DNA from: an uncultured Pelagibacteraceae bacterium
Lineage (GTDB): Bacteria; Pseudomonadota; Alphaproteobacteria; Pelagibacterales; Pelagibacteraceae
Direction: 5' to 3'
DNA: 64,000 bases
Assembly (NCBI GenBank): GCA_902571915.1
Contig: CACGDY010000001.1
Coordinates: forward strand, 248,001-312,000
The position numbers and the translations under genes were made by a program. Of this stretch, positions 34,203 to 56,296 are shown piece by piece (the first letter of the stretch is position 1; the number at the start of each line of letters is the position of its first letter). The notes under the pieces are model-generated. The model saw only the letters and a list, made by a program, of their open reading frames with translations. It had not been told where the DNA came from and ran no database searches.

Positions 34203-35154
34203 ATTTGATCTTATAAATAGATATTTTTCTAAGTTATCATTGAAAAATAAAAGTTCTTTAAAACTAAATGATGATGTTTTTTTTGATAAATCTAAAAATT
34301 TAGTTGTTTCAGTAGACACTTACGTAGAAGGAACTCATTTTATTAATTTTAAACATCCTAATCTTGTAATAAAAAAGATTCTAAGGTCATCAATTTCTGA
34401 TTTAATATGTAAAGGTGTAAATCCAAAATATTATTTTATATCAGGTTCCGGTAATAAATCCTCGTTTACAAAAAAAAATGTTAGAATAATTTCTAATTCA
34501 TTAAAACAAGAACAAAAAAAATTTTTAATATATTTATCAGGGGGTGATACTGTTTTTTCAAATAAGCTAAGTTTTACAATTATAACACTAGGTTATTCTA
34601 AAAAAATAATATTAAGAAATAATGCTAAAATAAATGATGATATATATGTCACCGGTAACTTGGGAGATAGCTTTATCGGTTTAAAAGTTTTAAAAAAAAA
34701 GATTATTTTAAAAAAAAATTTAAAATCTTATTTTATAAAAAAATACTATCACCCAGACTTATATATAAATATAACCAAAAAATTATTAAAATTTGCGAAT
34801 ACCTCAATTGATATTTCTGATGGTTTAATTTCAGACATAGATAAACTTATTAATAAACAAAACCTATCATACAAACTTTATTTAAAAGATATACCAATTT
34901 CAAATAATCTAAAGAATGTAATAAAATTAAGAAAAATTAAAAAATTATCATGTATTTCACAAGGTGATGATTACCAAATACTATTTACAGCTGCACCATC
35001 AAAATCTAGACTAATTAAAAATGTATTTAAAAATTCTGGCATCAAAATTTCAAAAATAGGAAAAATTTATAATAATAAAAAGAAATCTCAAATTATAAAT
35101 GAAAAAAACATTGAAATAAGGCTTAAAAATAAAGGTTATTTTCATAAATTTTAA
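34195..35154 (+). CDS. thiL: Thiamine-monophosphate kinase
   Basis: Phosphorylates thiamine monophosphate to the active cofactor. The 319 residues show LNDDVFFDKSKNLVVSVDTYVEGTHF near the N-terminus (Mg-ATP binding Asp cluster), SSISDLICKGVNPKYYF, GGDTVFSNKLSF, VTGNLGDSFIGL, and DISDGLISDIDKL near 206. Normal length. Overlaps nusB by eight bases, the classic ribH-nusB-thiL order. Confidence 0.92.
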   Translation: MHEFDLINRYFSKLSLKNKSSLKLNDDVFFDKSKNLVVSVDTYVEGTHFINFKHPNLVIKKILRSSISDLICKGVNPKYYFISGSGNKSSFTKKNVRIISNSLKQEQKKFLIYLSGGDTVFSNKLSFTIITLGYSKKIILRNNAKINDDIYVTGNLGDSFIGLKVLKKKIILKKNLKSYFIKKYYHPDLYINITKKLLKFANTSIDISDGLISDIDKLINKQNLSYKLYLKDIPISNNLKNVIKLRKIKKLSCISQGDDYQILFTAAPSKSRLIKNVFKNSGIKISKIGKIYNNKKKSQIINEKNIEIRLKNKGYFHKF

Positions 35155-35231: not shown

Positions 35232-37337
35232 ATGAGTTCATCGATAGACAACATTCTTTTATACACAATTGCTGCAGGTTTTTTGTCAATAGTGTATGGA
35301 TATTTTACAGGTAAAAATATTTTAAATTCAAGTGCGGGTAATTCCAAAATGCAAGAAATTGCATCTGCTATTCAAATAGGTGCTAAAGCTTACCTAGCAA
35401 GACAATATAAAACTATTGCAATAGTTGGAATAGTTGTATTAGTTATAGTGAGTATAGCATTTAGCCCTCTTGTTGGACTAGGTTACTTAATTGGCGCAGC
35501 TTTATCAGGTATAGCTGGATATGTTGGTATGTTAGTTTCTGTTCAAGCAAATGTAAGAACAGCAGAAGCTTCTCGCAAAGGTTTGGCTAATGGTTTATCC
35601 GTGGCATTTAAATCTGGTGCTGTAACTGGTATGTTGGTTGCAGGTTTAGCTTTGTTAGCTATAGCTCTTTATTATTATCTATTATTAAAATTTGATATTG
35701 AAGAGAGAGAGGTAGTTAATGCTCTTGTAGCTTTAGGTTTTGGTGCTTCCTTGATATCAATATTTGCAAGGCTGGGCGGTGGAATTTTTACTAAAGGTGC
35801 AGATGTTGGAGCAGATTTGGTTGGAAAAGTTGAAGCTGGTATTCCAGAAGATGATCCAAGAAATCCTGCTGTAATTGCTGATAACGTTGGTGATAATGTT
35901 GGTGATTGTGCGGGAATGGCTGCTGATTTATTCGAAACTTATGCAGTTACAATAGTTGCGACTATGGTTTTATCATCTATATTTTTTCCGGGTGATATTT
36001 CAATGATGATTTACCCTTTAACAATAGGTGGAGCTTGCATTCTAACATCAATATTAGGCACTTTTTTTGTAAAACTTGGATCAAGTAAAAATGTCATGAA
36101 TGCTTTATATAAAGGATTTGTTGTATCAGCTATCGCTTCATTAATAATCCTTTATCCAGTAACTGATTATGTTTTAGGTTTAGATACAACTTTTAAATTA
36201 AATAATATTTCTTTTTCAGGTATGAGTTTATATTATTGTGGTGTAATAGGATTAATAATTACTGGACTATTAATTTGGGTTACCGAGTATTATACTGGAA
36301 CAAATTTTAGACCAGTAAGGAGCGTCGCACAATCTTCGACAACAGGCCATGGAACAAATGTAATTCAAGGTTTAGCTATATCTTTAGAAGCTACTGCCAT
36401 TCCTGCCTTAATCATCGTTTCAGGTATATTGCTCACAAATCATATAGCTGGTCTTTATGGAATAGCAATAGCTGTAACCACTATGTTAGCACTAGCTGGA
36501 ATGGTTGTTGCTTTAGATGCGTATGGCCCAGTAACAGATAACGCAGGAGGAATTGCTGAAATGTCAAAACTACCTAACAAAGTTAGAAAAACTACTGATG
36601 CTTTAGACGCTGTAGGGAATACAACTAAAGCTGTAACAAAAGGTTATGCTATAGGATCTGCTGGATTAGGAGCGTTAGTACTTTTTGCAGCTTACACAGA
36701 GGATATTAAACATTTTTCAAAAGTTGCTGGCTCTAAATTAGAAGGAATTGTTGTAACTTTTGATTTGTCTAATCCATATGTGGTCGTTGGTTTATTAATA
36801 GGAGGAATGTTACCTTATTTATTTGGATCGATGGGTATGCAAGCAGTCGGTAGAGCAGGCGGAGCAGTCGTGATTGAAGTAAGAAGACAATTCAAAAAAT
36901 ACCCTGGTATTATGAAAAGAAAACAAAAACCAGATTACGCAAAATTAGTAGATTTACTAACTGTTGCAGCAATTAAAGAGATGATTATTCCATCATTACT
37001 TCCAGTTTTATCACCAATTGTTTTGTACTTTGTAATTTTTGCAATAGGAGGCCAAGTAGCAGCGTTAGCTTCTGTAGGTGCTATGTTATTAGGAGTTATA
37101 ATTACTGGTTTGTTTGTCGCTGTTTCAATGACTGCTGGTGGAGGTGCTTGGGATAACGCCAAAAAATATATTGAAGATGGAAATCATGGAGGAAAAGGAT
37201 CTGAGGCTCATAAAGCAGCAGTTACAGGAGATACTGTTGGCGACCCCTATAAAGATACTGCTGGACCTGCAGTTAATCCAATGATTAAGATAACCAATAT
37301 AGTAGCTTTATTGTTATTAGCAGTAATAGCTAATTGA
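35232..37337 (+). CDS. hppA: Membrane-bound proton-translocating pyrophosphatase
   Basis: Couples PPi hydrolysis to proton export. The 701 residues form about 16 membrane helices. The substrate motif [20 protein letters not shown] lies near residue 196, followed by [21 protein letters not shown] and the C-terminal [18 protein letters not shown]. The helix 12 segment reads [17 protein letters not shown] with Lys after the NTT, the pattern of K+-independent H+-PPases. Preceded by a 77-base AT-rich gap likely holding its own promoter. A PPi-driven pump suits energy-limited oligotrophs. Confidence 0.97.
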
Positions 37338-43001: not shown

Positions 43002-43006
43002 TTTAT

Positions 43007-43064
43007 TCCTTTTTTAGTGCTTTAACTTTATGTAAGGCGCACAATATAGTTCAAATACCTACCG
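43007..43064 (-). promoter_or_regulatory. Predicted SAM-V riboswitch overlapping the metY ribosome-binding site
   Basis: On the minus strand the last ~58 bases before metY read GGTAGGTATTTGAACTATAT, then TGTGCGCCTTACATAAAG, then GCACTAAAAAAGGAAT. GTAGG can pair with CTTAC (one G.U), and GTGC in the loop side with GCAC just before the Shine-Dalgarno, giving an H-type pseudoknot that would bury the AAGGA site seven to eight bases from the ATG. The layout and the TTGAAC..ATATTG and CTAAAAAAGG elements fit the SAM-V class known from marine bacteria. Recognised by eye, not by a covariance model. Confidence 0.8.
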
Positions 43065-43080
43065 ACTATTTAATGAAACT

Positions 43081-45335: not shown

Positions 45336-46628
45336 ATGACTGAATCCGTAAATATAGCAATTGTTGGATTGGGACAAATCGGTAATTATTTGTACAATGA
45401 AATAAATTTAAAAAAAAAATCAATAGAAAATAAAACAGGAAAAAAGATAAAAATCGTAGCAATTTCTGCAAAAAACAAAAATAAAAAAAGACGTTATAAA
45501 ATCAACAAAAAAATTTTTTTTGACAACCCTTTTCAAATGATAAAAAAGAATAAAATTAATATTCTTTTTGAATGTATAGGTTTGTCAGATGGAATATCAA
45601 AAAAAATTATAATACATGCATTAAAAAATAAGATACACGTTATAACACCAAATAAAGCTTTAATAGCAAAGCATGGTGATGAATTATCTAAACTTGCAGA
45701 AAGTAACAAAGTAAACCTAGAATTTGAAGCATCAGTAGCAGGTGGAATACCATTATTACAAACTATTAAAAATGGATTGGCGACAAATCAAATTAAAAAA
45801 TTTTATGGAATATTAAATGGAACAACTAATTATATCCTATCAGAGATGGAAAAAACAAATCAGTCATTTGATAAAGTACTATTAAAAGCTCAAAAATTAG
45901 GATACGCCGAACCAGGAAATCCTAAATTAGATTTAAATGGCTTTGATGCTTTTGCTAAAGTAAAAATCTTATCTTCACTTGCATACAAAAATAGAATATC
46001 AAACAATAAATGCATAATGGAAGGTATTCAAAATATTGAATTAAAAGATATTAAGATTGCTAATAAATTAGATATGAGAATCAAACTATTAGGTATATCT
46101 AAGATAATTAAAAATAAGTTATTCGAAACAGTTCATCCATGTTTAGTTAATAAAGACTCTTATATTGGTAATGTTAATGGTGTTATGAATGCAATTATTT
46201 TAGAGGGAAAACCAGTTGGAGAAACTGTTTTACAAGGTGAGGGCGCTGGACCAGGTCCAACCTCATCCTCTTTACTTTCTGATTTGATATCAATTTTACA
46301 GGAAAATACTAAGTATCCTTTTGGTGTTCCTTTTAAAAAAAGAGGATCCATTAAATCATTTCAATTTAATAATTATGTAAATTCACTTTATTTAAGGTTT
46401 GAAGTAAAAGATAAACCAGGTGTTTTATCTTTTATAACTAATAGATTAGCCAAATTTAAAATTTCTATTAAAAGAATCATCCAAACACCTGATAAAATTA
46501 ACAAAAGGGCAACGATTGTAATTATTTCACACAAAACTTCTGAAATTAATTCCAAAAGATGTTTACAAATTTTCAAAAAAAATAAAAATATTATAAAATT
46601 TCCAACTTTAATTAGACTTTTTAATTAA
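45336..46628 (+). CDS. hom: Homoserine dehydrogenase
   Basis: Reduces aspartate semialdehyde to homoserine for threonine and methionine. The 430 residues have the NAD(P) site IAIVGLGQIGNYLYNEI, VITPNKALIAKHG near residue 105, FEASVAGGIPLLQTIKNGL near 130, and the GYAEPGNPKLDLNGFDAFAK catalytic motif near 190. A C-terminal ACT domain (RFEVKDKPGVLSFITNRLAK) follows from about 345. Its last base is the first base of the AEC gene. Confidence 0.96.
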   Translation: MTESVNIAIVGLGQIGNYLYNEINLKKKSIENKTGKKIKIVAISAKNKNKKRRYKINKKIFFDNPFQMIKKNKINILFECIGLSDGISKKIIIHALKNKIHVITPNKALIAKHGDELSKLAESNKVNLEFEASVAGGIPLLQTIKNGLATNQIKKFYGILNGTTNYILSEMEKTNQSFDKVLLKAQKLGYAEPGNPKLDLNGFDAFAKVKILSSLAYKNRISNNKCIMEGIQNIELKDIKIANKLDMRIKLLGISKIIKNKLFETVHPCLVNKDSYIGNVNGVMNAIILEGKPVGETVLQGEGAGPGPTSSSLLSDLISILQENTKYPFGVPFKKRGSIKSFQFNNYVNSLYLRFEVKDKPGVLSFITNRLAKFKISIKRIIQTPDKINKRATIVIISHKTSEINSKRCLQIFKKNKNIIKFPTLIRLFN

Positions 46629-47530
46629 TGGAAATTTATATAAAACTTTTTGAAATTTTATTTCCAGTATATTTTGTTGTTGCTATTGGATATTATCTTG
46701 GAAAAAAAAATCCAAAAATTGATACTACATTTATTACTAATTTTGCAGCAAATGTTGGTACACCAGCGATGATTATATACGCCTTAAATCCTGCAAATAC
46801 TACAATTGAAATTTTTAAAGATTATTTTTGGTACTATTCACTTGCTATAATTGGCTTTTTTATTGTTGGCATAATCTTTTTATCTTTATTGAACACAAAA
46901 GATATAATTAGGGAGTTACCACCCTTTGTTATGCCTAATACAGGTAATATGGGGTTGCCTATATGTTTATTTGCTTATGGAACACAAGGCCTTGGGGTAG
47001 CAGCTGCCATATCCGCACTAATAGTTTTGTGTCATTTTACACTCGGAGTTTTTCTTGCGGATAGAAAATTTAGCCTTAATGTAATTTTAAAAAGTGCACC
47101 TTTTTACGCTATTGTATTTTCTATTTTTCTTCTTTTTTTTGATCTTGAATTGCCTGTGTTTGTTGAAAACACTACTTTTTTACTGATGTATGCCACTATA
47201 TTTCTGATCCTTATGTCATTAGGAATTGCTCTTACGAGGTTGAAAGTTTTCTCATTTAATAAAGCTTTGTTTTCATCTATTGGAAGAGTTTTTTTAGGCC
47301 CAGCTATAGGATATGCATTGATTTATTATTATAATCTTGATGGATATGCGGCTGGAGTTTTACTTATACAATGTTCAATGCCTAGTGCAGTTTTAACATA
47401 TTTAGTTGGATCAATTTATTCACCAAAAAAAATAGTTGATAGTATTGCGAGCATGATAGTTGTATCAACCACAATTTCATTTTTTACTATACCTATAGTA
47501 GTATTTTTTGCCTTAAAGTATTTTAATTAA
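46628..47530 (+). CDS. AEC family transporter (auxin efflux carrier-like permease)
   Basis: A 300-residue membrane protein with about ten helices in the AEC fold: LFEILFPVYFVVAIGYYLGKK at the N-terminus, a broken-helix segment FVMPNTGNMGLPICLFAYG near residue 97, and LLIQCSMPSAVLTYLVG near 240. Family members export or import organic acids and related anions; substrate not inferable. Translationally coupled to hom and overlaps the convergent glycosyltransferase by eight bases. Confidence 0.88.
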   Translation: MEIYIKLFEILFPVYFVVAIGYYLGKKNPKIDTTFITNFAANVGTPAMIIYALNPANTTIEIFKDYFWYYSLAIIGFFIVGIIFLSLLNTKDIIRELPPFVMPNTGNMGLPICLFAYGTQGLGVAAAISALIVLCHFTLGVFLADRKFSLNVILKSAPFYAIVFSIFLLFFDLELPVFVENTTFLLMYATIFLILMSLGIALTRLKVFSFNKALFSSIGRVFLGPAIGYALIYYYNLDGYAAGVLLIQCSMPSAVLTYLVGSIYSPKKIVDSIASMIVVSTTISFFTIPIVVFFALKYFN

Positions 47531-48245
47531 TTTTTTTAAAAAAATGTTTTATTTTAAATTTGATATACTCTAATTTTGCAATTTTTCGTCTATTTATAAA
47601 TCCTTTTGCTATTAAATCTTTTAAAGAATCTTCATTAGAATGTTTTTTATAAACTAAATCCTCATTTGTTAAATATTTAAATTTTTTACTCAAATCTAAA
47701 ATTTGATTTTTTTCAATAAATTGTAAATATAATGATATCCAAAGATCATCGTTTAAAAATAAATTTTTATTTTTATCAACAAAAGAGTAATAAAAATCAT
47801 TTATTCGTTCCAAATTTTTAGTATTAATCAATATACCGTCTGCTCCTTGGCCCATATTAAGCTTAAATACCTTCTGCACATAAAAACTGTAGTTTTTATT
47901 ATGTTTTTTAAATTCATCTACAAAAATTTCAAACATTTTATAATGATAAGAATGATCATCATCTAAAATTATGACTAGATCAAAATTTTTTGTTTGATCT
48001 AATGACCCCATCAATTTTGTACCTGGTCCGTAGTCATCACATCTAATTATTTCAACATTTTTTTTTTTTAATTTTACAATTTGTTCTTCTTTAAATTCGT
48101 AATGTGGAAATCTTTTAAATTTATAAGGTAAATTTAAAAAGATTTTTTTAGGTTTTAAAGACTGATTGTTTATTGAGTCTATGGTTTTTTCTATACTTTT
48201 TAATCTTGACGGCAATGTAGTAAATGAAACACAAAAATTTATCAT
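47523..48245 (-). CDS. Glycosyltransferase-like protein, GT-A fold
   Basis: A 240-residue protein beginning NFCVSFTTLPSRLKSIEKTI, like a GT-A nucleotide-sugar fold, with a DxD-type motif in LVIILDDDHSYHYKMF near residue 94 and a later acidic segment LFLNDDLWISLYLQF that may supply the catalytic base. No signal peptide or membrane helix; the C-terminus is basic. Probably acts on surface polysaccharide. It overlaps the recombinase gene by four bases, suggesting co-transcription. Confidence 0.65.
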   Translation of the reverse strand: MINFCVSFTTLPSRLKSIEKTIDSINNQSLKPKKIFLNLPYKFKRFPHYEFKEEQIVKLKKKNVEIIRCDDYGPGTKLMGSLDQTKNFDLVIILDDDHSYHYKMFEIFVDEFKKHNKNYSFYVQKVFKLNMGQGADGILINTKNLERINDFYYSFVDKNKNLFLNDDLWISLYLQFIEKNQILDLSKKFKYLTNEDLVYKKHSNEDSLKDLIAKGFINRRKIAKLEYIKFKIKHFFKKIN

Positions 48246-49195
48246 ATCTTAATTTTATTTAACGCATTATTTTTAAATATATTTGCCTCTTTAATGTATC
48301 TTCTAACCATTTGTGTTGTTTTGTGACCAGTCATTGCCATAATACTACGTTCATCAGCACCAGACACTGCAGCAACAGTTGCAAAACCTGATCTTAAACT
48401 ATGACCCGCAAAATTTTTATTCTCAATCCCAGCTAAATTTAGATATTCTTTCATTAATAAAACTACTGATTGGTCGGTTAATCTTTTCTCTGTTAGAGAT
48501 AAACCTTTAGAAAATCTTCTAAAAATAGGTCCAGATTTAATTTTAGAAATTTCTAGCCATTTTTTAAGATTGACAATTGGACAATAAGTTTCATTAGTGA
48601 AGTAGGGTAGACCTTTAATCATCCCTTCACCGAATTGATCAGTTTTTGACCTTTTAATAGTGATTTTGAGCCCCTCAGGTACAAATTCTAAATCTTCATG
48701 ATCGATTGAAATTAACTCAGTTCGTCTAAATCCACCTCCAAAGCCAACTAATATTATTGATTTGTCTCTAAACTTCTTAATATCCTCAATTTTTTGTTCA
48801 TTTATTACATTAATTATAGATTTTAAATGATTGATTAATATAGGTTTTTTACCTTTTTGAATACTCCCTTTTACCCTTCTTATTCCCATTAAGTTTTCTA
48901 CAATGATTGGATGTTTTGTATCTAAATAATGCCCTTTTAGTTTATGAAACATGCTAATTGAAACTAATCTTCTTCTTAAAGTGCTGATTTTTGAATTTTT
49001 AGAAAGATGGGTGAGGTATAAAGAAACGATTTTAGGCTCAGATGGTAAAGAATTTAAACCATGCTTAGCACAAAAAGCTCCAAAGTCTTTAAAGTCTGAT
49101 TTATATGCTCTTAAAGTGTTACTTGCTTTAGAGCTTTTGAGGTTATTTAAAGTTGCCTCATGTAGCGATTTTAGGTCTGTAGTTAACTCATTCAT
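48242..49195 (-). CDS. Tyrosine recombinase / phage-type integrase
   Basis: A 317-residue site-specific recombinase. An N-terminal SAM-like core-binding domain (SNTLRAYKSDFKDFGAFCAKHG near residue 24) is followed by the catalytic domain with the first Arg in GFGGGFRRTELISIDHEDL near 156, the HxxR box AGHSLRSGFATVAAVSG, the later His in MAMTGHKTTQMV and the nucleophile Tyr in RRYIKEANIF. All catalytic residues are present. The gene starts four bases from a perfect 14-bp inverted repeat. Resembles XerC/D but is not part of a recognised xer context; more likely a mobile or island integrase. Confidence 0.93.
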   Translation of the reverse strand: MNELTTDLKSLHEATLNNLKSSKASNTLRAYKSDFKDFGAFCAKHGLNSLPSEPKIVSLYLTHLSKNSKISTLRRRLVSISMFHKLKGHYLDTKHPIIVENLMGIRRVKGSIQKGKKPILINHLKSIINVINEQKIEDIKKFRDKSIILVGFGGGFRRTELISIDHEDLEFVPEGLKITIKRSKTDQFGEGMIKGLPYFTNETYCPIVNLKKWLEISKIKSGPIFRRFSKGLSLTEKRLTDQSVVLLMKEYLNLAGIENKNFAGHSLRSGFATVAAVSGADERSIMAMTGHKTTQMVRRYIKEANIFKNNALNKIKI

Positions 49196-49198
49196 ATA

Positions 49199-49233
49199 AT
49201 TACTATTGATAACAATTAATTATCAATAGTAAT
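49199..49233. repeat. Perfect 14-bp inverted repeat with 7-base spacer, candidate recombinase core site
   Basis: ATTACTATTGATAA (49199-49212) and TTATCAATAGTAAT (49220-49233) are exact reverse complements around the spacer CAATTAA. Arm length, 7-base spacer and the inner ..ATAA/TTAT.. ends resemble core sites of tyrosine recombinases (att or dif type). It lies between the recombinase start and a divergent small ORF, so it could instead be an operator for a regulator or for autoregulation. Confidence 0.85.
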
Positions 49234-49274
49234 ATACTAAGTGTATTTTAATGTCAATAGTTTAAATTATTATT

Positions 49275-49451
49275 ATGAGTCCTGTAGATGGAGAAATCCC
49301 AGCAGTATGGTTTTTAATAACTTCGGTTGGTTTTATTTTTTTAAGCTATATTCAGTTTAAAAATCACGGAAAAACCATTGAAACTATATTTCTATCAATA
49401 TTGGCAATTTTATTTTTTATTAGCTATTTTATATTAGTTTTTAAAGCTTGA
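49275..49451 (+). CDS. Small two-helix membrane protein, 58 residues, unknown
   Basis: Too short for the ORF track. It reads MSPVDGEIPAVWFLITSVGF, one hydrophobic helix, a short polar turn (KNHGKTIET) and a second helix of about 20 hydrophobic residues ending at TGA 49449-49451. Divergent from the recombinase; the gap between the two starts holds the inverted repeat. No purine-rich Shine-Dalgarno is obvious. Helix-turn-helix membrane design with a charged loop makes it plausible as a real gene, but a toxin-like or regulatory role would be speculation. Confidence 0.55.
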   Translation: MSPVDGEIPAVWFLITSVGFIFLSYIQFKNHGKTIETIFLSILAILFFISYFILVFKA

Positions 49452-49535
49452 GTTATCCCCACTCTTAACAAGGTTAAAAAAATCAATCAAAAAGTGATAC
49501 GATTTAAAAGTTTTATTTGATAGTATATAAATGAA

Positions 49536-49716
49536 TTAAGAGGCAACTCTTAACTGGCCAATTGGACAAAAGCCGAGAGGTACAATTCCAGGGGGCAGAA
49601 AGCTCTGTAAAGCATCGCTGAACATACAGAGCGGGAGGCATGGCGGTAGCGCATCAACGACGTGCCAAAACAACTGTTCTTTGCACCTTTAAAAGTGCAA
49701 GGAAACAGGGGTTTTT
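49536..49716 (+). ncRNA. Candidate structured RNA of unknown family, upstream of the alkyltransferase gene
   Basis: About 180 bases that are clearly less AT-rich than the surroundings, carry no ORF and fold into successive stems: TTAAGAG-GCAA-CTCTTAA with a GNRA tetraloop; CTGG/CCAG plus AATTG/CAATT (49554-49591) enclosing GCC-GAGA-GGT, a second GNRA loop; an exact 8-bp stem GCTCTGTA/TACAGAGC (49602-49632); GGCATG/CGTGCC (49637-49666); and a terminal hairpin followed by T5. I looked for tmRNA, RNase P, SRP and 6S signatures and saw none. It could be a free small RNA or a leader controlling the gene eight bases downstream. Confidence 0.6.
49674..49716 (+). terminator. Terminator-like hairpin before the alkyltransferase gene
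   Basis: CTGTTCTTTGCAC pairs with GTGCAAGGAAACAG (one bulged A, one G.U) around an eight-base loop, followed by GGG and five T. It ends eight bases before the ATG at 49725, so it either ends the preceding RNA or acts as an attenuator. The GGGG after the stem is not ideal for intrinsic termination. Confidence 0.5.
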
Positions 49717-49724
49717 ATTCTTAG

Positions 49725-50000
49725 ATGATACTCAAAGGGACAAAATTTCAACTAAAAGTTTGGAAATACTTAAAAAGTATACCAAAAGGTCAAGTTAAGA
49801 CCTATAAAGAAGTTGCAATAAGCATAAAAAGCCCAAAATCAGCTCGTGCTGTGGCTAATGCTTGCGCTAAAAACCCATATGCACCAAAAATACCTTGTCA
49901 CAGAGTAATTAAATCTGATGGGACACTTGGAGGCTACTCTGGAAGAGGTGGAATTAAGCAAAAGCTCAAATTACTTAGATCTGAAAAAGTAGTCATTTAG
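49725..50000 (+). CDS. Methylated-DNA-[protein]-cysteine S-methyltransferase, single-domain (MGMT family)
   Basis: A 91-residue protein equal to the C-terminal DNA-binding/active-site domain of O6-alkylguanine transferases: FQLKVWKYLKSIPKGQVKTYKEVA near residue 8, RAVANACAKNP near 36, and IPCHRVIKSDGTLGGYSGR with the acceptor Cys near 57. The whole N-terminal domain of full-length Ogt (about 160-180 residues) is missing. Unlike ATL proteins, which have Trp at the active site, the Cys is kept, so suicide repair of alkylated guanine is plausible. Preceded by the structured RNA region. Confidence 0.88.
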   Translation: MILKGTKFQLKVWKYLKSIPKGQVKTYKEVAISIKSPKSARAVANACAKNPYAPKIPCHRVIKSDGTLGGYSGRGGIKQKLKLLRSEKVVI

Positions 50001-50447
50001 TCCTATTTTGAGGCTTTTTTAAGTTCAAAAAGTTAATAAAATCAACACTTTTTAAACAATTAACTGTTTTTTTCTTAAATAATTTAATTCACGCTTCAGT
50101 TGTACCATATATGAGACTATACCTAAAATAGACCCCTCTATGGACGTTTAAATGGTATATTCGATTAACGCATCGCTCTACTATTCAACTATATCAATGC
50201 TTTTGGCCTACCCTATTTTAAAGGAAATTCTTAGCCAGTATTGCTAAAAAACTCCTATTTGTATGGATTATTTGATGTTTTTGATTATTTAATAAAATTT
50301 TAGACTTTTGTGGATCATATAAATCAATTTTATATTAAATAATAGATATATTACAAAATTAAAATATTAATAAAATTCAATAAATACAATAGTTTATATT
50401 TATTACTTAAAGCGATACTTTAAATAATAGTAAATAAATAATACCTA
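50001..50447. other. 447-base stretch without a recognised gene
   Basis: Unusually long gap for this genome. Very AT-rich at both ends, with a somewhat more balanced middle (about 50110-50230). On the minus strand a short open stretch (50052-50147) reads protein-like (SILGIVSYMVQLKRELNYLRK) but lacks an upstream start and is preceded by a stop; it could be the remnant of a gene end. No clear hairpin, tRNA or repeat was seen. Confidence 0.6.
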
Positions 50448-51299
50448 TTATTTAACTTTTCTCTCTAAGTTCTCTCTTCTTGATATATAGATACCACTTA
50501 ACACAATAATAAATAAACCTATAAAAGTCCAATTATCTGGGAAATCACTAAAGAAATAATAACCTATAATAATGTTTGTAATGATCTCAAAGTAACTAAA
50601 TGGAGCTAATTTAGACGCATCAGCATATTTAAGAGACAAGATTAAAAATAAGTGCCCAATACAAGCAAATATACCTATCGCAGCCATCATAGACCACTGA
50701 TTTAAGCTAGGTTTCACCCACACAAATGGCATTATGATAGATATAATTATAGCCCCTACTACACCGGTTAACAATAAAGTTAATAAAGGATTGTCTGAAG
50801 TACTAAGTTTTCGAGTAATAATTAAATAAAACCCATACATTACACCTGTTCCAAGAGCAGCTATACTTGCTAAATTAATTTCTACAAAACCTGGTCTTAT
50901 AACTACTAAAGAACCTATAAACCCTATAGTTACCGCTGACCATCTTCTAAATCCCACCCTCTCTCCTAAGAAAATTGGGGAAAAAGCTGTAACAATTAAA
51001 GGTGCAACAAAAGCTAAAGTTAATGCTTTTGCTAAGGAAATTACTGATATTGCATAAAAAAAACAAATATTAGCTATTAAAAGTATTAAACCTCTTAAAA
51101 ATTGTAATTTAGGTTTTTCTGTCCAAACTAAATATTTTCGAAACAATAAAAACATTATTGGTAAAGTAAAAACTACAGTAAAAAAATATCTAGCCCAAGT
51201 AATTTGTAAAACTGGTAAATCTTTACTCAAATATTTTGCAAAACCATCCATAATTGGAAGCATTACCCAGGCCAAAAGGTTAAAAAAAATAGCCTTCAT
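50448..51299 (-). CDS. EamA/DMT family transporter
   Basis: A 283-residue inner-membrane protein with ten helices in two EamA repeats. The first has NLLAWVMLPIMDGFAKYLSKDLPVLQITWARYFF and LTLAFVAPLIVTAFSPIFLGERVGFRRW, and the second has KLAPFSYFEIITNIIIGYYFF near residue 232. Family members export amino acids or other metabolites; substrate unknown. It ends the minus-strand gene run, following the glycosyltransferase by four bases. Confidence 0.9.
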   Translation of the reverse strand: MKAIFFNLLAWVMLPIMDGFAKYLSKDLPVLQITWARYFFTVVFTLPIMFLLFRKYLVWTEKPKLQFLRGLILLIANICFFYAISVISLAKALTLAFVAPLIVTAFSPIFLGERVGFRRWSAVTIGFIGSLVVIRPGFVEINLASIAALGTGVMYGFYLIITRKLSTSDNPLLTLLLTGVVGAIIISIIMPFVWVKPSLNQWSMMAAIGIFACIGHLFLILSLKYADASKLAPFSYFEIITNIIIGYYFFSDFPDNWTFIGLFIIVLSGIYISRRENLERKVK

Positions 51300-51303
51300 A
51301 TAA

Positions 51304-52305
51304 TTATCTTAATAAATTTTGCCAACTATTAATGATCTTATTAATCGTATATTTCTTAGAGTGATTGTAACATGTCGATATAAGTCTCTTTTTCTTCTTA
51401 TCATTAAGTTCGATAATTCTTATAATTGTTTTTGCTATTTCATCAAAATTTTTAACAATTATACCATTTTTATTATGAGATATCAGATCTTTTAATGCAG
51501 TTTTTCCAAATGAAATAACTGGTAATCCACAAGCATTAGCCTCAAGAGCATTTAAGCAAAAAGTTTCATCATAACCAAGGCAAATCATGGATAGAGATTT
51601 ATTGTAAATTTTTTTTAATTTATATTTAGATGTTTTTTTGAAAAAAAAAATATTATTCTTTAAATATCTATTTTTATTTCTAATTATATCTTTATCATTA
51701 GCACCAAAAACATAAAATTTTGCATTTTTATATAACGGATTTATTTTATTAATCCAAATATCTAAAAATTCTTTTAAACCTTTAGTCCTTTGAACGGACC
51801 AAACAAAAATAGGTTTTCGATTATAGTTTTTTTTTGAATTTTCAAATATTTTTGATAGAAAATTTGGTATAATATAGCTATTATTAAATAAATACAGTTT
51901 AGAAGTTTTTTCTTTTAAGTATTTACTAACAAAAATAACGTTAATTTTATTTCTTATTAAGGAAAAAAATTTTTTTTTTCGAATTGCTTTCTCAATTGAT
52001 AGTGTATTATGCATCCAAAAAATATTTTTTGAATTAGAAAAATAATTAAAAATTAATGGATCATTTGAACTAATTATAATATCAAAATTAGAAGTCTTAG
52101 CTTTTTCTCGTACATTTTTAATAGGAATATTCAATATTCCAAATTTTCTTACTATTTTAGTAGTTTGTGTGGCCAAAAATACCTTGTAACTTTTTTTTGC
52201 TAACTCACGCGATAATTCAATATTTAAAGTCTCTATACCGCCCAGTGAATTTATATTTTTTGATAAAAGATTAAATTTAAAAGGACAATAAAATAGGATT
52301 CTCAT
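51304..52305 (-). CDS. Glycosyltransferase family 4-like protein
   Basis: A 333-residue GT-B enzyme. N-terminal half: CPFKFNLLSKNINSLGGIETLNIELSRELA, a GT4-like acceptor domain. C-terminal half: VWSVQRTKGLKEFLDIW near residue 180 and the donor-binding ALEANACGLPVISFGKTALKDLI with the EX7E-like acidic positions near 259. Overlaps the upstream GT2 gene by four bases. Part of a four-gene surface-glycan run with two glycosyltransferase neighbours and an FkbM methyltransferase. Confidence 0.87.
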   Translation of the reverse strand: MRILFYCPFKFNLLSKNINSLGGIETLNIELSRELAKKSYKVFLATQTTKIVRKFGILNIPIKNVREKAKTSNFDIIISSNDPLIFNYFSNSKNIFWMHNTLSIEKAIRKKKFFSLIRNKINVIFVSKYLKEKTSKLYLFNNSYIIPNFLSKIFENSKKNYNRKPIFVWSVQRTKGLKEFLDIWINKINPLYKNAKFYVFGANDKDIIRNKNRYLKNNIFFFKKTSKYKLKKIYNKSLSMICLGYDETFCLNALEANACGLPVISFGKTALKDLISHNKNGIIVKNFDEIAKTIIRIIELNDKKKKRLISTCYNHSKKYTINKIINSWQNLLR

Positions 52306-53186
52306 TTTGATTTTATAGATGAAAATAATTTATAATAATAAAATAAAATCTTATCTTTAAACAAATCCAAAAAAAAATTTATGTTTTTTTTTGGGTTATT
52401 TAGAATTTCATTGTGAAAATGAGTACTTTTTAAAAAATGTTTTTTAAAAAATTTTATAGAAAAACCCCATTTAAGTATAAATATTTTATTTGCTATTGAA
52501 CCTTGATTTTTTTTAAAATTAACATCTTTTTTTTTTCTTATAGTTACTGATCCAAAATGATATACTTTTGAATTTCCTAAACACTTAAATATTCTCACCC
52601 CTTCATTCCACAATTTCATATTAAAGTCTGGATCTGAACCAGCTCCAGGCGAAAATTCCTCACTAAAACCACCTACTTTATCCCATATTTCTTTATGAAC
52701 TAAATGTGGGGCCCATGTTGATCCTTGAAAGTCTCTATGATGAAGACTTTTAAAATTATTTAACAAAAATTTTTCATCAAAATTTTCTATTTTATCCCCT
52801 GCATGAAAATTCAGATGACCATTCAGCTTAGGATCACCATTTATCATAATACTAGATAAGTAAAATTTATTAGTGTTTATCCTTTTTACTTCTTCAATTA
52901 GTATTTTATCCCAATCAGGAAGAAAATACATATCATCATGTGAATACAAAATATATTTATGAAAACTCTTTTTTGAAATAATATTACAAGCTTTACATAA
53001 GCCCACATTATTTTGTGAATGTGTAAATTTAATACGATTTTCATTTAAATATTCGACTGTACCATCTGTACCTTCATTGGAGTGAACTAAAATTTCATTA
53101 TCGTAATATGAATTTTTTTTAAGACTATTAATACATAATTTTAAGTATGCTAAATTATTAAAGGTTGGTATGATTATAGATATCAT
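52302..53186 (-). CDS. Glycosyltransferase family 2 protein
   Basis: A 294-residue GT-A enzyme with ISIIIPTFNNLAYLKLCINSL at the N-terminus and the DxD-type ILYSHDDMYFLPDWD near residue 82. Acceptor-site residues include WDKVGGFSEEFSPGAGSDPDFNMKLW near 173-194. No membrane helices. Probably transfers a sugar to lipopolysaccharide, a polysaccharide or a glycoprotein. Overlaps its neighbours by four bases each, so a single operon. Confidence 0.9.
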   Translation of the reverse strand: MISIIIPTFNNLAYLKLCINSLKKNSYYDNEILVHSNEGTDGTVEYLNENRIKFTHSQNNVGLCKACNIISKKSFHKYILYSHDDMYFLPDWDKILIEEVKRINTNKFYLSSIMINGDPKLNGHLNFHAGDKIENFDEKFLLNNFKSLHHRDFQGSTWAPHLVHKEIWDKVGGFSEEFSPGAGSDPDFNMKLWNEGVRIFKCLGNSKVYHFGSVTIRKKKDVNFKKNQGSIANKIFILKWGFSIKFFKKHFLKSTHFHNEILNNPKKNINFFLDLFKDKILFYYYKLFSSIKSK

Positions 53187-53932
53187 TTTATTGATTTAGT
53201 ATTATTTTTTATGAATATTAAATCATCCTGTACCCAGTTTACAAATTTATATTTTTTTCGGATCATAAATTTATAAATTTCAGAATTAGTAATTTGAGAT
53301 ATGCTATTGTTATAAAATTCTTTGCTTTTTGGATTGATAAACTCAATCATTACTACTTTTGGCTTATATTTTTTGAAATTTAAACCTTTTAAAACTTTCA
53401 GTTCATTTCCCTCAACGTCAATTGATAAAAAATCAATTTCATTAATCTTTAAATCTGATTCTTTAATTATATTATCTAATGTGTTGGTTTGAATACTTTT
53501 TATTAACTTTGCACCTTTACTATTTTTTTTTGATATTGTGTTTTTTGCAGCTCTATTGTGAAAGAAATAAAGATTAGCTTTATCTTTTTTGTCTGACAAA
53601 GCCATCTTAATATTATTATCTTTTGGTCTAAAAAAATTAAACATATCTATTGAATTATAATCTAAATCTACATTAATTCCTCTCCATCCTTTTTTGTGAA
53701 GAATATAAGTATTATTATTAATAAATGGATGATGACAACCAACATCTATATAAACACCATCTTTTTTTTTTTTAAAGATATTTAGTACAATCATATCGGC
53801 TCCCCAATTAGAATAAATAATTCTTGGATATAATTTATTTTTTAAATATTGAAAGAAAAAATACAAAAGTTTGAATAAGTTTAAATTTTTAGAATATAAA
53901 AAATTATCTTTAATTTTTTCTTCAATTTTCAT
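53183..53932 (-). CDS. FkbM family methyltransferase
   Basis: A 249-residue SAM-dependent methyltransferase, usually acting on sugar hydroxyls of glycans. Motif I is GVYIDVGCHHPFINNNTYILHKKGWRGINVD near residue 64, and the FkbM core includes INEIDFLSIDVEGNELKVLKGLNFKKYKPKVVMIE near 160-195. Between two glycosyltransferases and sharing stop/start overlaps, so it likely caps or decorates the same glycan. Confidence 0.9.
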   Translation of the reverse strand: MKIEEKIKDNFLYSKNLNLFKLLYFFFQYLKNKLYPRIIYSNWGADMIVLNIFKKKKDGVYIDVGCHHPFINNNTYILHKKGWRGINVDLDYNSIDMFNFFRPKDNNIKMALSDKKDKANLYFFHNRAAKNTISKKNSKGAKLIKSIQTNTLDNIIKESDLKINEIDFLSIDVEGNELKVLKGLNFKKYKPKVVMIEFINPKSKEFYNNSISQITNSEIYKFMIRKKYKFVNWVQDDLIFIKNNTKSIK

Positions 53933-56049
53933 TAATATAGTTTTGTAGAATTTCCTAAAGAAGTGTCGATTAAATATTTTGTTATTTTAAGCTCATTAAA
54001 TAACTTAAAATATTTTTTTTTACCATTAGATGCAATTTTTTTTCTTAATTTTGAATTTTTTTTATAAAACTTTAATTTTTGAGAAAGATCATCAATATTT
54101 TCATACAATATTACCTCACTATTAGTAAAAAAATCATTTAAATGGGTTTTCTTATCTATAAAAGTTAATAAACCATTACCAATCAATGATGCTATTCTAT
54201 TACTTGAGTAATATTTAGTAGGTAAACCTCTGCTCAAATTTAATCCCATTTTAGAATTAACCAATGCTTGATAAAAATTATTTCCCCAAATTGGTTCTTT
54301 ATTTTTAAATCCATAAAAATCATAATTTATATTTATTATCTTCCTTGTTAGTTTATTTAGGAATTTAATTCTGTCGTCAGTCTTGCCTTTTTTTAATGTG
54401 GCTCTATTAACACCATGACTCATTGCATAAAATAAATCCATAGCTGGTTTTAAATTAAATACATCAAAACACTCAATATTTTTATCAACAGGAACAAAGA
54501 AAAAATGTAGATTCTTTATTTTAATATTTTGCTTTTTAATTACACTTGGATCAGTAGTGATAAAGTTGTGATCAACTATATCTGAGTACATAACAATATT
54601 TTCTATATTTTTTTTTGAATAATCTAAACTTGGCATAACTGGATCTTCATTCCACTGTGAAGTAATCAAATTTTTATTTAATGACTTTATTCTATTCAAA
54701 GTTTCTGGACTGATATTATTTGTGTGTCCAAAAATAAAAAAATCTGGATTATAGTTTTTAAATGTTTCAATCAAATATTCTTGAAATCTTAAATTGGTAT
54801 CTCCAAAAACAATTGATCTATTTTGTTTCATAAAATCTCTATCACTTATTTCTAAAACATCATGACCGTTTCTTATAAAACCATTAGTAAACTTTTTTCC
54901 TATAGAAATATTGTATAGTCTATGGTTCAATTTTTGACCGGTATTATATAGATTTATTATTCTTAATTTATTTTTGATAAAATTGAGATTGAAGTTATGT
55001 ATTAATTTTTCTCTAGTACTATCAATTAATTGAGTATTTGCTCTAATAGTATGTTTTACATTCTTAAAACCTTGAGTTTGAAGTTTTTTTCTTAGATTTT
55101 CATTATTTATTAACTTTTTAAGGGCTTCATAAAGTGATTTAGAATTTAAACTATCAAGTACATAACAGTAATCTGTTGTTTCAGACAAACCTCCCCTATT
55201 TGATATAATTGTAGCACAAGCTCTTGAAGAAGATTCTAAAGCTGTTCTTCCAAAAGGTTCTTCCCATCTAGATGGAACAACAGCTATTTCAGATTTATCT
55301 AAAAATTTAAGAACTTTTTTATGTTCTAAAAAACCTAATTCAAAATGTCTCTTATGATTAATATGTGGTCTTTCTCTGCTTTCATCACCAATTGAAAAAG
55401 CTCTCCAATTCTTAAATTCATCTAAAATTTTTAAAATTGCTTCTTTATATATATCATAACCTTTAGAAACATTAAGTTTTCCAACAAATACAATATTTTT
55501 ATTTTTTCTATAAATTTTTTTTTCTTTATTAATACTTGGATAAATAACATCGGTTTTATGAATTAGTTTTCTATCTATACCTTTAAAGAATTGATTTTGT
55601 GTCCACTTACTAACAAAAATTATTTTATCAATTTTATTTAATAGATTAAGTCTTTCTGAAACTGTTTTAGAGCCTTTCATTGAAATTGGGTCATTATGAA
55701 AATATAAAATAAATTTTTGGCTCAAATATTTTTTTAGATAGTTAAAAACTAAAGGTCTATTGTGTATCTCTATTATTTCAAAGTTTTTATCTTTAATTTT
55801 AGATATAAAGTTGTCACAATATTCAATTGTAGTGCTTCTTAGTTTAGATTTTTTAAGTTTTAAAGGAACGTTTATATAATTTTTAGTAAGATAGTCTTTT
55901 TTATCAGTGTTTCCAAAAATAAAATTTTCTTTTTTAAATTTAGATTTTTTAAAAAAGTCACAAACCCATATAGCTGCAGCTTGTGCTTTTGAAAAAGTAT
56001 AATTTTCTTTATATGGAAGAATAGTTGCAATTTTAAGAATTTTTTTCAT
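53932..56049 (-). CDS. Large two-domain glycosyltransferase (GT4-like plus CgeB-like)
   Basis: A 705-residue protein that looks like two GT-B enzymes joined end to end. Residues 1-350 resemble GT4: FVGKLNVSKGYDIYKEAI near 188 and VVPSRWEEPFGRTALESSSRACATIISNRGGLSETT near 258. From ~365 a CgeB-like domain follows: NPDFFIFGHTNNISPETLNRI, SQWNEDPVM near 476, and NSKMGLNLSRGLPTKYYSSNRIASLIGNGLL near 605, the donor-site pattern of that family. Overlaps the GIY-YIG gene by 17 bases. Two activities could add consecutive sugars. Confidence 0.85.
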   Translation of the reverse strand: MKKILKIATILPYKENYTFSKAQAAAIWVCDFFKKSKFKKENFIFGNTDKKDYLTKNYINVPLKLKKSKLRSTTIEYCDNFISKIKDKNFEIIEIHNRPLVFNYLKKYLSQKFILYFHNDPISMKGSKTVSERLNLLNKIDKIIFVSKWTQNQFFKGIDRKLIHKTDVIYPSINKEKKIYRKNKNIVFVGKLNVSKGYDIYKEAILKILDEFKNWRAFSIGDESRERPHINHKRHFELGFLEHKKVLKFLDKSEIAVVPSRWEEPFGRTALESSSRACATIISNRGGLSETTDYCYVLDSLNSKSLYEALKKLINNENLRKKLQTQGFKNVKHTIRANTQLIDSTREKLIHNFNLNFIKNKLRIINLYNTGQKLNHRLYNISIGKKFTNGFIRNGHDVLEISDRDFMKQNRSIVFGDTNLRFQEYLIETFKNYNPDFFIFGHTNNISPETLNRIKSLNKNLITSQWNEDPVMPSLDYSKKNIENIVMYSDIVDHNFITTDPSVIKKQNIKIKNLHFFFVPVDKNIECFDVFNLKPAMDLFYAMSHGVNRATLKKGKTDDRIKFLNKLTRKIININYDFYGFKNKEPIWGNNFYQALVNSKMGLNLSRGLPTKYYSSNRIASLIGNGLLTFIDKKTHLNDFFTNSEVILYENIDDLSQKLKFYKKNSKLRKKIASNGKKKYFKLFNELKITKYLIDTSLGNSTKLY

Positions 56050-56296
56050 TGAATTTATCAGTAATCAATTTCCTTAATTTTCTATTATTTTTGAGTCTAT
56101 ATTCATTTTTCATTGCAACGCTCTTTTTAATATATTTTTTTTTATATATTAATTTCCAATTATAACCTTTTGTTGATTTAGCACCCTTGTTCTCATTATG
56201 AGCTTTTAATCTTTTTTTTAAATCTATAGTGTATCCAACATAAGTTTTTTTTTTATGTTTAGTAGTGCTAAGTAGCATGTACACATAAAATGACAT
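56033..56296 (-). CDS. GIY-YIG domain nuclease-like protein (UPF0213 type)
   Basis: An 87-residue protein that is essentially one GIY-YIG module. It has FYVYMLLSTT for the first motif, KTYVGYTIDLKKRLKAHNENKGAKST for the second with the catalytic Arg, and MKNEYRLKN with the metal-binding Glu. Family function is poorly defined. First gene of the minus-strand glycan run, directly next to tRNA-Glu. Confidence 0.85.
   Translation of the reverse strand: MSFYVYMLLSTTKHKKKTYVGYTIDLKKRLKAHNENKGAKSTKGYNWKLIYKKKYIKKSVAMKNEYRLKNNRKLRKLITDKFNEKNS

Follow-up and report, generated by a model that had tools for sequence, protein, structure and literature searches.

A tyrosine recombinase gene and a 35-bp palindrome, separated by three bases, were found on one side of a polysaccharide gene island in the window (the whole 64-kb stretch of DNA analyzed). 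The recombinase gene (48242-49195, minus strand) starts with ATG and encodes a single Xer-like protein of 317 amino acids, which was matched in Pfam to Phage_integrase (PF00589; E 2.6e-17) and to an N-terminal SAM-like domain (PF02899), in agreement with a first-pass annotation that had read the gene as complete. R157, K184, H265, R268, H291, and Y300 were invariant across 19 orthologues, and from this residue conservation the protein is predicted to be a catalytically intact, conserved tyrosine recombinase. Orthologues from named Pelagibacteraceae assemblies were 92-98% identical to it.

The palindrome, ATTACTATTGATAA-CAATTAA-TTATCAATAGTAAT (49199-49233), is a perfect 14-7-14 inverted repeat, as previously noted, although the distance to the start codon had been given as four bases rather than three. 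It consists of a gene-side arm next to the recombinase start (49199-49212; TTATCAATAGTAAT on the gene strand), a 7-bp central spacer (49213-49219; TTAATTG on the gene strand), and an outer arm away from the gene (49220-49233; ATTACTANNGATAA on the gene strand). Because the spacer is asymmetric, the site has a direction. It was the sole perfect inverted repeat with arms of at least 14 bases (spacer 3-15) in the window, and none was detected in 12 Markov-shuffled windows, in line with the earlier remarks that such symmetry is far beyond chance and that no second copy was noticed in the window by eye. When the genome was searched for further arm copies, as had been proposed, the left arm occurred three times, namely as both arms of the palindrome and at C3:780; the latter, located inside an ABC-type ATPase gene, was rejected as a chance match. 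The site is AT-rich, intergenic, palindromic, and present once per chromosome.

A conserved recombinase promoter was identified at 49229-49257 (minus strand), composed of TTGACA (49257-49252), a 17-nt gap, and TATTAC (49234-49229). Since TATTAC runs into the outer arm, binding of the recombinase would cover its own promoter. This TTGACA-17-TATTAC element was missing from the output of the default promoter scan, and the promoter call is therefore based on conservation: TTGAC was 97-100% conserved in 77 aligned loci.

The recombinase scored far below the NCBIfam cut-offs for XerC (63.6 of 335 bits), XerD (72.6 of 329.6 bits), XerA, and XerS (NF003462; 41.9 bits against 267), and thus is not an orthologue of any proven Xer protein. 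A PDB sequence search with the protein gave no match to XerH at E <= 0.001, and XerH was recovered by fold match alone with the predicted structure. The best structural match of the AlphaFold model was Cre, with approximately 17% identity, but the model itself was of low confidence (pLDDT 63), so this Cre-like fold match is only supportive. Tree placement against E. coli XerC/XerD was discarded as a long-branch artefact (XerC/D nested, branch length 7.45), and a statement on origin therefore goes no further than "not a close Xer orthologue." Elsewhere in the same genome, outside the window, a 553-aa open frame (G000 contig C1, 196572-197126) encodes another Phage_integrase protein, which is unrelated to the recombinase and possibly a mobile element.

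The recombinase gene lies at the boundary of a surface-polysaccharide island of hypervariable content (46600-56100 in the window; in 102 related loci, the downstream side). The upstream side was conserved and included an ATL-type gene (94/102 loci), IMES-2 RNA (62/102), and a gene for a 58-aa membrane protein (58/102). A glycosyltransferase gene overlapping the 3' end of the recombinase gene was present in only four of the 102 loci. IMES-2, a marine RNA known from metagenomes, was found in the window at 49529-49668 (plus strand, 144 bits), and its position near the terminus site is conserved. A SAM-V riboswitch was also detected (43003-43069, minus strand, 78.7 bits).

Joint conservation of the arms and the recombinase in relatives had been named as a test of the site, and in all 80 named Pelagibacteraceae loci the site was kept, 1-3 nt from the recombinase start codon. 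The spacer TTAATTG was identical in 76 and the gene-side arm in 69 of these loci, and the outer arm was free to vary at two inner positions only; many other Pelagibacteraceae carried the spacer TTAATGG. Among 61 genomes of the order searched, the recombinase was found in 27 of 37 from the same genus (62-98% identity), the remainder of which were incomplete drafts. In each of the 27, one palindrome core adjoined the gene (26 exact, one with one mismatch). All 11 single-contig genomes of the family encoded the recombinase, and eight of these 11 complete genomes had no other tyrosine recombinase. Across the order, 131 of 150 near-complete genomes matched, a count that includes weak matches from sister family f2, and the search gave no match in the other 19 (gaps or loss). 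Members of the sister family mostly encoded a pair of proteins that scored far higher for Phage_integrase, as would be expected of XerC plus XerD.

The sites fell into two types. Type A has arms TTACTA..TAGTAA, and type B, found in some genomes as TTTCCGATAA-TTAATGG-TTATCGGAAA, has arms TTTCC..GGAAA, with both arms altered jointly. The protein differed correspondingly: a 12-residue segment (approximately aa 226-237 in the window recombinase), typical of recombinases with type A sites, was present in 12/12 type A recombinases and absent from 13/13 type B ones (25/25 concordant). Within a single genus, L305 was of type A and L306 of type B, and in the recombinase tree type A was not monophyletic. 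Because site and protein change as a unit, these comparisons provide strong indirect evidence that a recombinase of the window type would recognize its adjacent site. Further, the two types provide naturally occurring, matched variants of site and protein with which recombinase specificity can be studied.

The location of the site was compared with cumulative GC skew in four genomes from three genera. The skew maximum was at 615,774 and the site at 617,610 in a complete genome (G012), and the corresponding positions were 295,462 and 297,208 (1.7 kb apart) in the 347-kb contig that contains the window. In 400-kb stretches from two other genera, the skew peaked at 493,446 with the site at 492,372 (G065), and at 1,015,742 with the site at 1,013,359 (G178). 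The site was thus 1.1-2.4 kb from the maximum, which marks the replication terminus opposite the origin, in every case. By block bootstrap the maximum in G012 is located to about -70 to +55 kb only; a single peak is therefore imprecise, and the weight rests on the agreement of all four genomes, which are not independent tests because they are partly syntenic. In 11/11 complete genomes, dnaA was 41-50% of the genome away from the recombinase gene, with genome lengths partly rounded.

An FtsK gamma domain was found in all eight near-complete genomes tested; in E. coli, this domain makes contact with XerD and recognizes KOPS. KOPS-like G-rich motifs were polar and pointed to the site: GGNAGGG occurred 44 times on the leading and 10 times on the lagging strand, and for GGGNAGGG, with up to one mismatch allowed, the counts within 200 kb of the site were 88 and 26, respectively. 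GC skew accounts for part of this polarity.

The linkage to the recombinase, the single copy per genome, the location where GC skew turns in four genomes, and the presence of FtsK gamma strongly support a dif-like site, one of the readings offered in the first-pass annotation. On this genomic evidence, Pelagibacteraceae (SAR11) very probably possess a compact, single-recombinase Xer/dif system for chromosome dimer resolution. In the proposed mechanism, RecA-dependent crossing-over would leave two chromosomes fused, and FtsK at the closing septum would translocate DNA, guided by the polar G-rich motifs, and so bring the two terminus sites together. One tyrosine recombinase would bind both arms of the single palindromic terminus site and exchange strands across the 7-bp spacer, giving two monomers again. 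As the site overlaps the recombinase's own promoter, binding would probably also limit expression. For the SAR11 recombinase, we infer binding, cleavage, dimer resolution, FtsK dependence, and autoregulation alike. SAR11 bacteria rank among the most abundant cells on Earth, and their replication terminus can now be located by sequence.

Pelagibacter ubique has been described as lacking a dif/Xer system in a published survey, which held that Pelagibacter lost chromosome dimer resolution via genome streamlining (Carnoy and Roten, 2009; PMC2731167). Our literature search found no report of a SAR11 dif. The evidence from the genomes says instead that dimer resolution would have been replaced, not lost, with a streamlined module of one gene and one site. 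In P. ubique, mRNA of xerD (SAR11_1019), which is presumably the counterpart of the window recombinase gene, increased 8.5- and 7.6-fold alongside recA under sulphur limitation or in stationary phase (PMC5069961), and its expression also rises with recA in light (PMC3090418). The increase with recA fits a role after RecA-made crossovers.

The proposed module resembles known single-recombinase systems. XerS/difSL of streptococci and lactococci likewise links one recombinase to a palindromic near-terminus site, and one Xer gene stands in for XerC and XerD, as proposed in SAR11 (PMC2731167); however, it belongs to a different phylum, the 14-7-14 arms of SAR11 have another sequence, and the SAR11 protein is not of the XerS family. 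XerH/difH of Helicobacter and Campylobacter is also a single recombinase, with a site that lies close to the peak of GC skew and is linked to the gene in most species (PMC2731167, PMC5241119), but the centre of difH is 6 nt in place of the 7-bp spacer, and similarity to XerH is by fold only. With XerC/XerD-dif, the SAR11 module shares the proposed function, the terminus position, the FtsK gamma domain, the inner ATAA/TTAT, and polar G-rich motifs, whereas it has one recombinase rather than two and a 14-7-14 rather than 11-6-11 site, the dif spacer being 6 bp and that of SAR11 7. Cre/loxP of phage P1, in which one recombinase acts on a palindrome and resolves dimers, is close to the arrangement proposed for SAR11 but differs in its 8-bp spacer, in being phage or plasmid borne, and in sequence (approximately 17% identity).

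Copies of the site were also found in viral sequences. In an IMG/VR scan, type A arms with a free 5-8 bp spacer matched 80 stretches, compared with three for a reversed-arm control, and type B arms matched at least 120, compared with 12; an initial scan, in which the spacer was held constant, had included chance matches and was set aside. All but one of the 80 type A stretches were AT-rich, and 49 reached the full outer ATT..AAT, which is absent from the search pattern. High-GC matches to type B arms (about 20%) are probably unrelated hairpins. A TerL motif accompanied 48/80 type A and 53/115 type B stretches, but 0/15 control stretches. Spacers in the phage contigs were 6, 7, or 8 bp and mostly unlike that of the host, which was present in only three type A stretches, and type A and type B sites were often in tandem. 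The variation argues against simple homologous integration for most of these phages. Dif motifs of gokushoviruses also vary in their spacer (PMC7062461).

Among isolates, type A and type B sites lay together near terL in HTVC100P (34319-34378; one mismatch of 25 in type A), HTVC035P (35829-35887; two mismatches), and HTVC106P (35375-35436; four mismatches), and Greip carried type A only, also near terL (22464; one mismatch). Dif-like sites were absent from HTVC011P and HTVC019P, which are annotated with integrases; in HTVC028P, which itself encodes a tyrosine recombinase, no site was found in the terminase region examined, and HTVC010P had no convincing dif-like site. PF00589 tyrosine recombinases were missing from 10 of 11 pelagiphage isolates checked, the exception being HTVC028P, which suggests that site-bearing pelagiphages may hijack the host recombinase. 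The 80 named loci (±1.5 kb), G012, and G000 contig C1 contained no second site indicative of an integrated phage copy. Phage multimer resolution, of the kind known for plasmid cer and P1 loxP, would be at least as likely as integration. Pelagiphages of HTVC010P relationship are treated as lytic. We tentatively propose, at somewhat less than even probability, that integrase-free tailed members of this relationship use the SAR11 recombinase at their own dif-like sites, either resolving multimers or integrating at the host terminus, with tandem A and B sites serving hosts of either specificity. This would give abundant phages thought to lack one a possible route to lysogeny or multimer resolution. 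The integrase-free phages of the IMEX type, including gokushoviruses, similarly carry dif-like sites with variable spacers (PMC7062461), but the pelagiphages differ in being tailed dsDNA phages with sites beside terminase, often with two arm types in tandem; no integrated copy was seen in the host loci and genomes named above.

Other roles of the palindrome were weighed against dimer resolution. It might serve only as an autoregulatory operator, at which the recombinase or another dimeric regulator represses the promoter while recombination takes place elsewhere or not at all, and its overlap with the -10 element of a conserved promoter, 1-3 nt from the start codon in 80/80 named loci, is what such an operator would show. 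An operator, however, has no need of a position at the GC-skew turning point or of an asymmetric 7-bp spacer that is nearly invariant in hosts, and the phage sites, which keep the arms with spacers of 6, 7, or 8 bp, suit a recombinase site better than a rigid dimeric regulator; we regard this explanation as unlikely. The regulated promoter suggested in the first-pass annotation may nevertheless hold in the form of autoregulation, given that TTGACA-17-TATTAC meets the arm, but not as a switch. If the promoter were invertible and governed both the recombinase and the 58-aa membrane gene that diverges from it, a palindrome between two divergent genes would be accounted for, yet inversion requires two inverted sites and only one is present: G012, G000 contig C1, and the 80 named loci all lacked a second inverted copy. 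Moreover, the site persists while the 58-aa gene is found in only 58/102 loci, leaving the switch with a negligible probability.

The remaining earlier proposal was an attachment site for gene capture; in this reading the recombinase would be a mobile-element integrase that captures genes into the neighbouring glycosyltransferase island at the palindrome. The downstream content is indeed hypervariable: alignment covered more than half in 9% of pairs downstream compared with 65% upstream, and sporadic, distant alphaproteobacterial relatives also have GATAA-N6/7-TTATC palindromes near the gene. Against this, the recombinase occurs almost throughout the family as a single copy, the site occupies a terminus position, and a further site bordering the island was absent from G012, from G000 contig C1, and from all 80 named loci. 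Gene capture is accordingly judged very improbable, even though the gene borders the island.

The SAR11 recombinase gene may derive from a mobile recombinase that was domesticated. In other Alphaproteobacteria, distant relatives (E 1e-25 to 1e-60) were sporadic, and 10 of 138 near-complete alphaproteobacterial genomes, SAR11 included, matched at E 1e-20. The module probably had an independent origin. The GATAA-N6/7-TTATC palindromes were located near the start of distant recombinase relatives in three alphaproteobacterial loci (L546, L547, and L548), and a viral contig (L288) carried another distant relative with a similar palindrome; together these form a wider family of self-linked recombinase/site modules.
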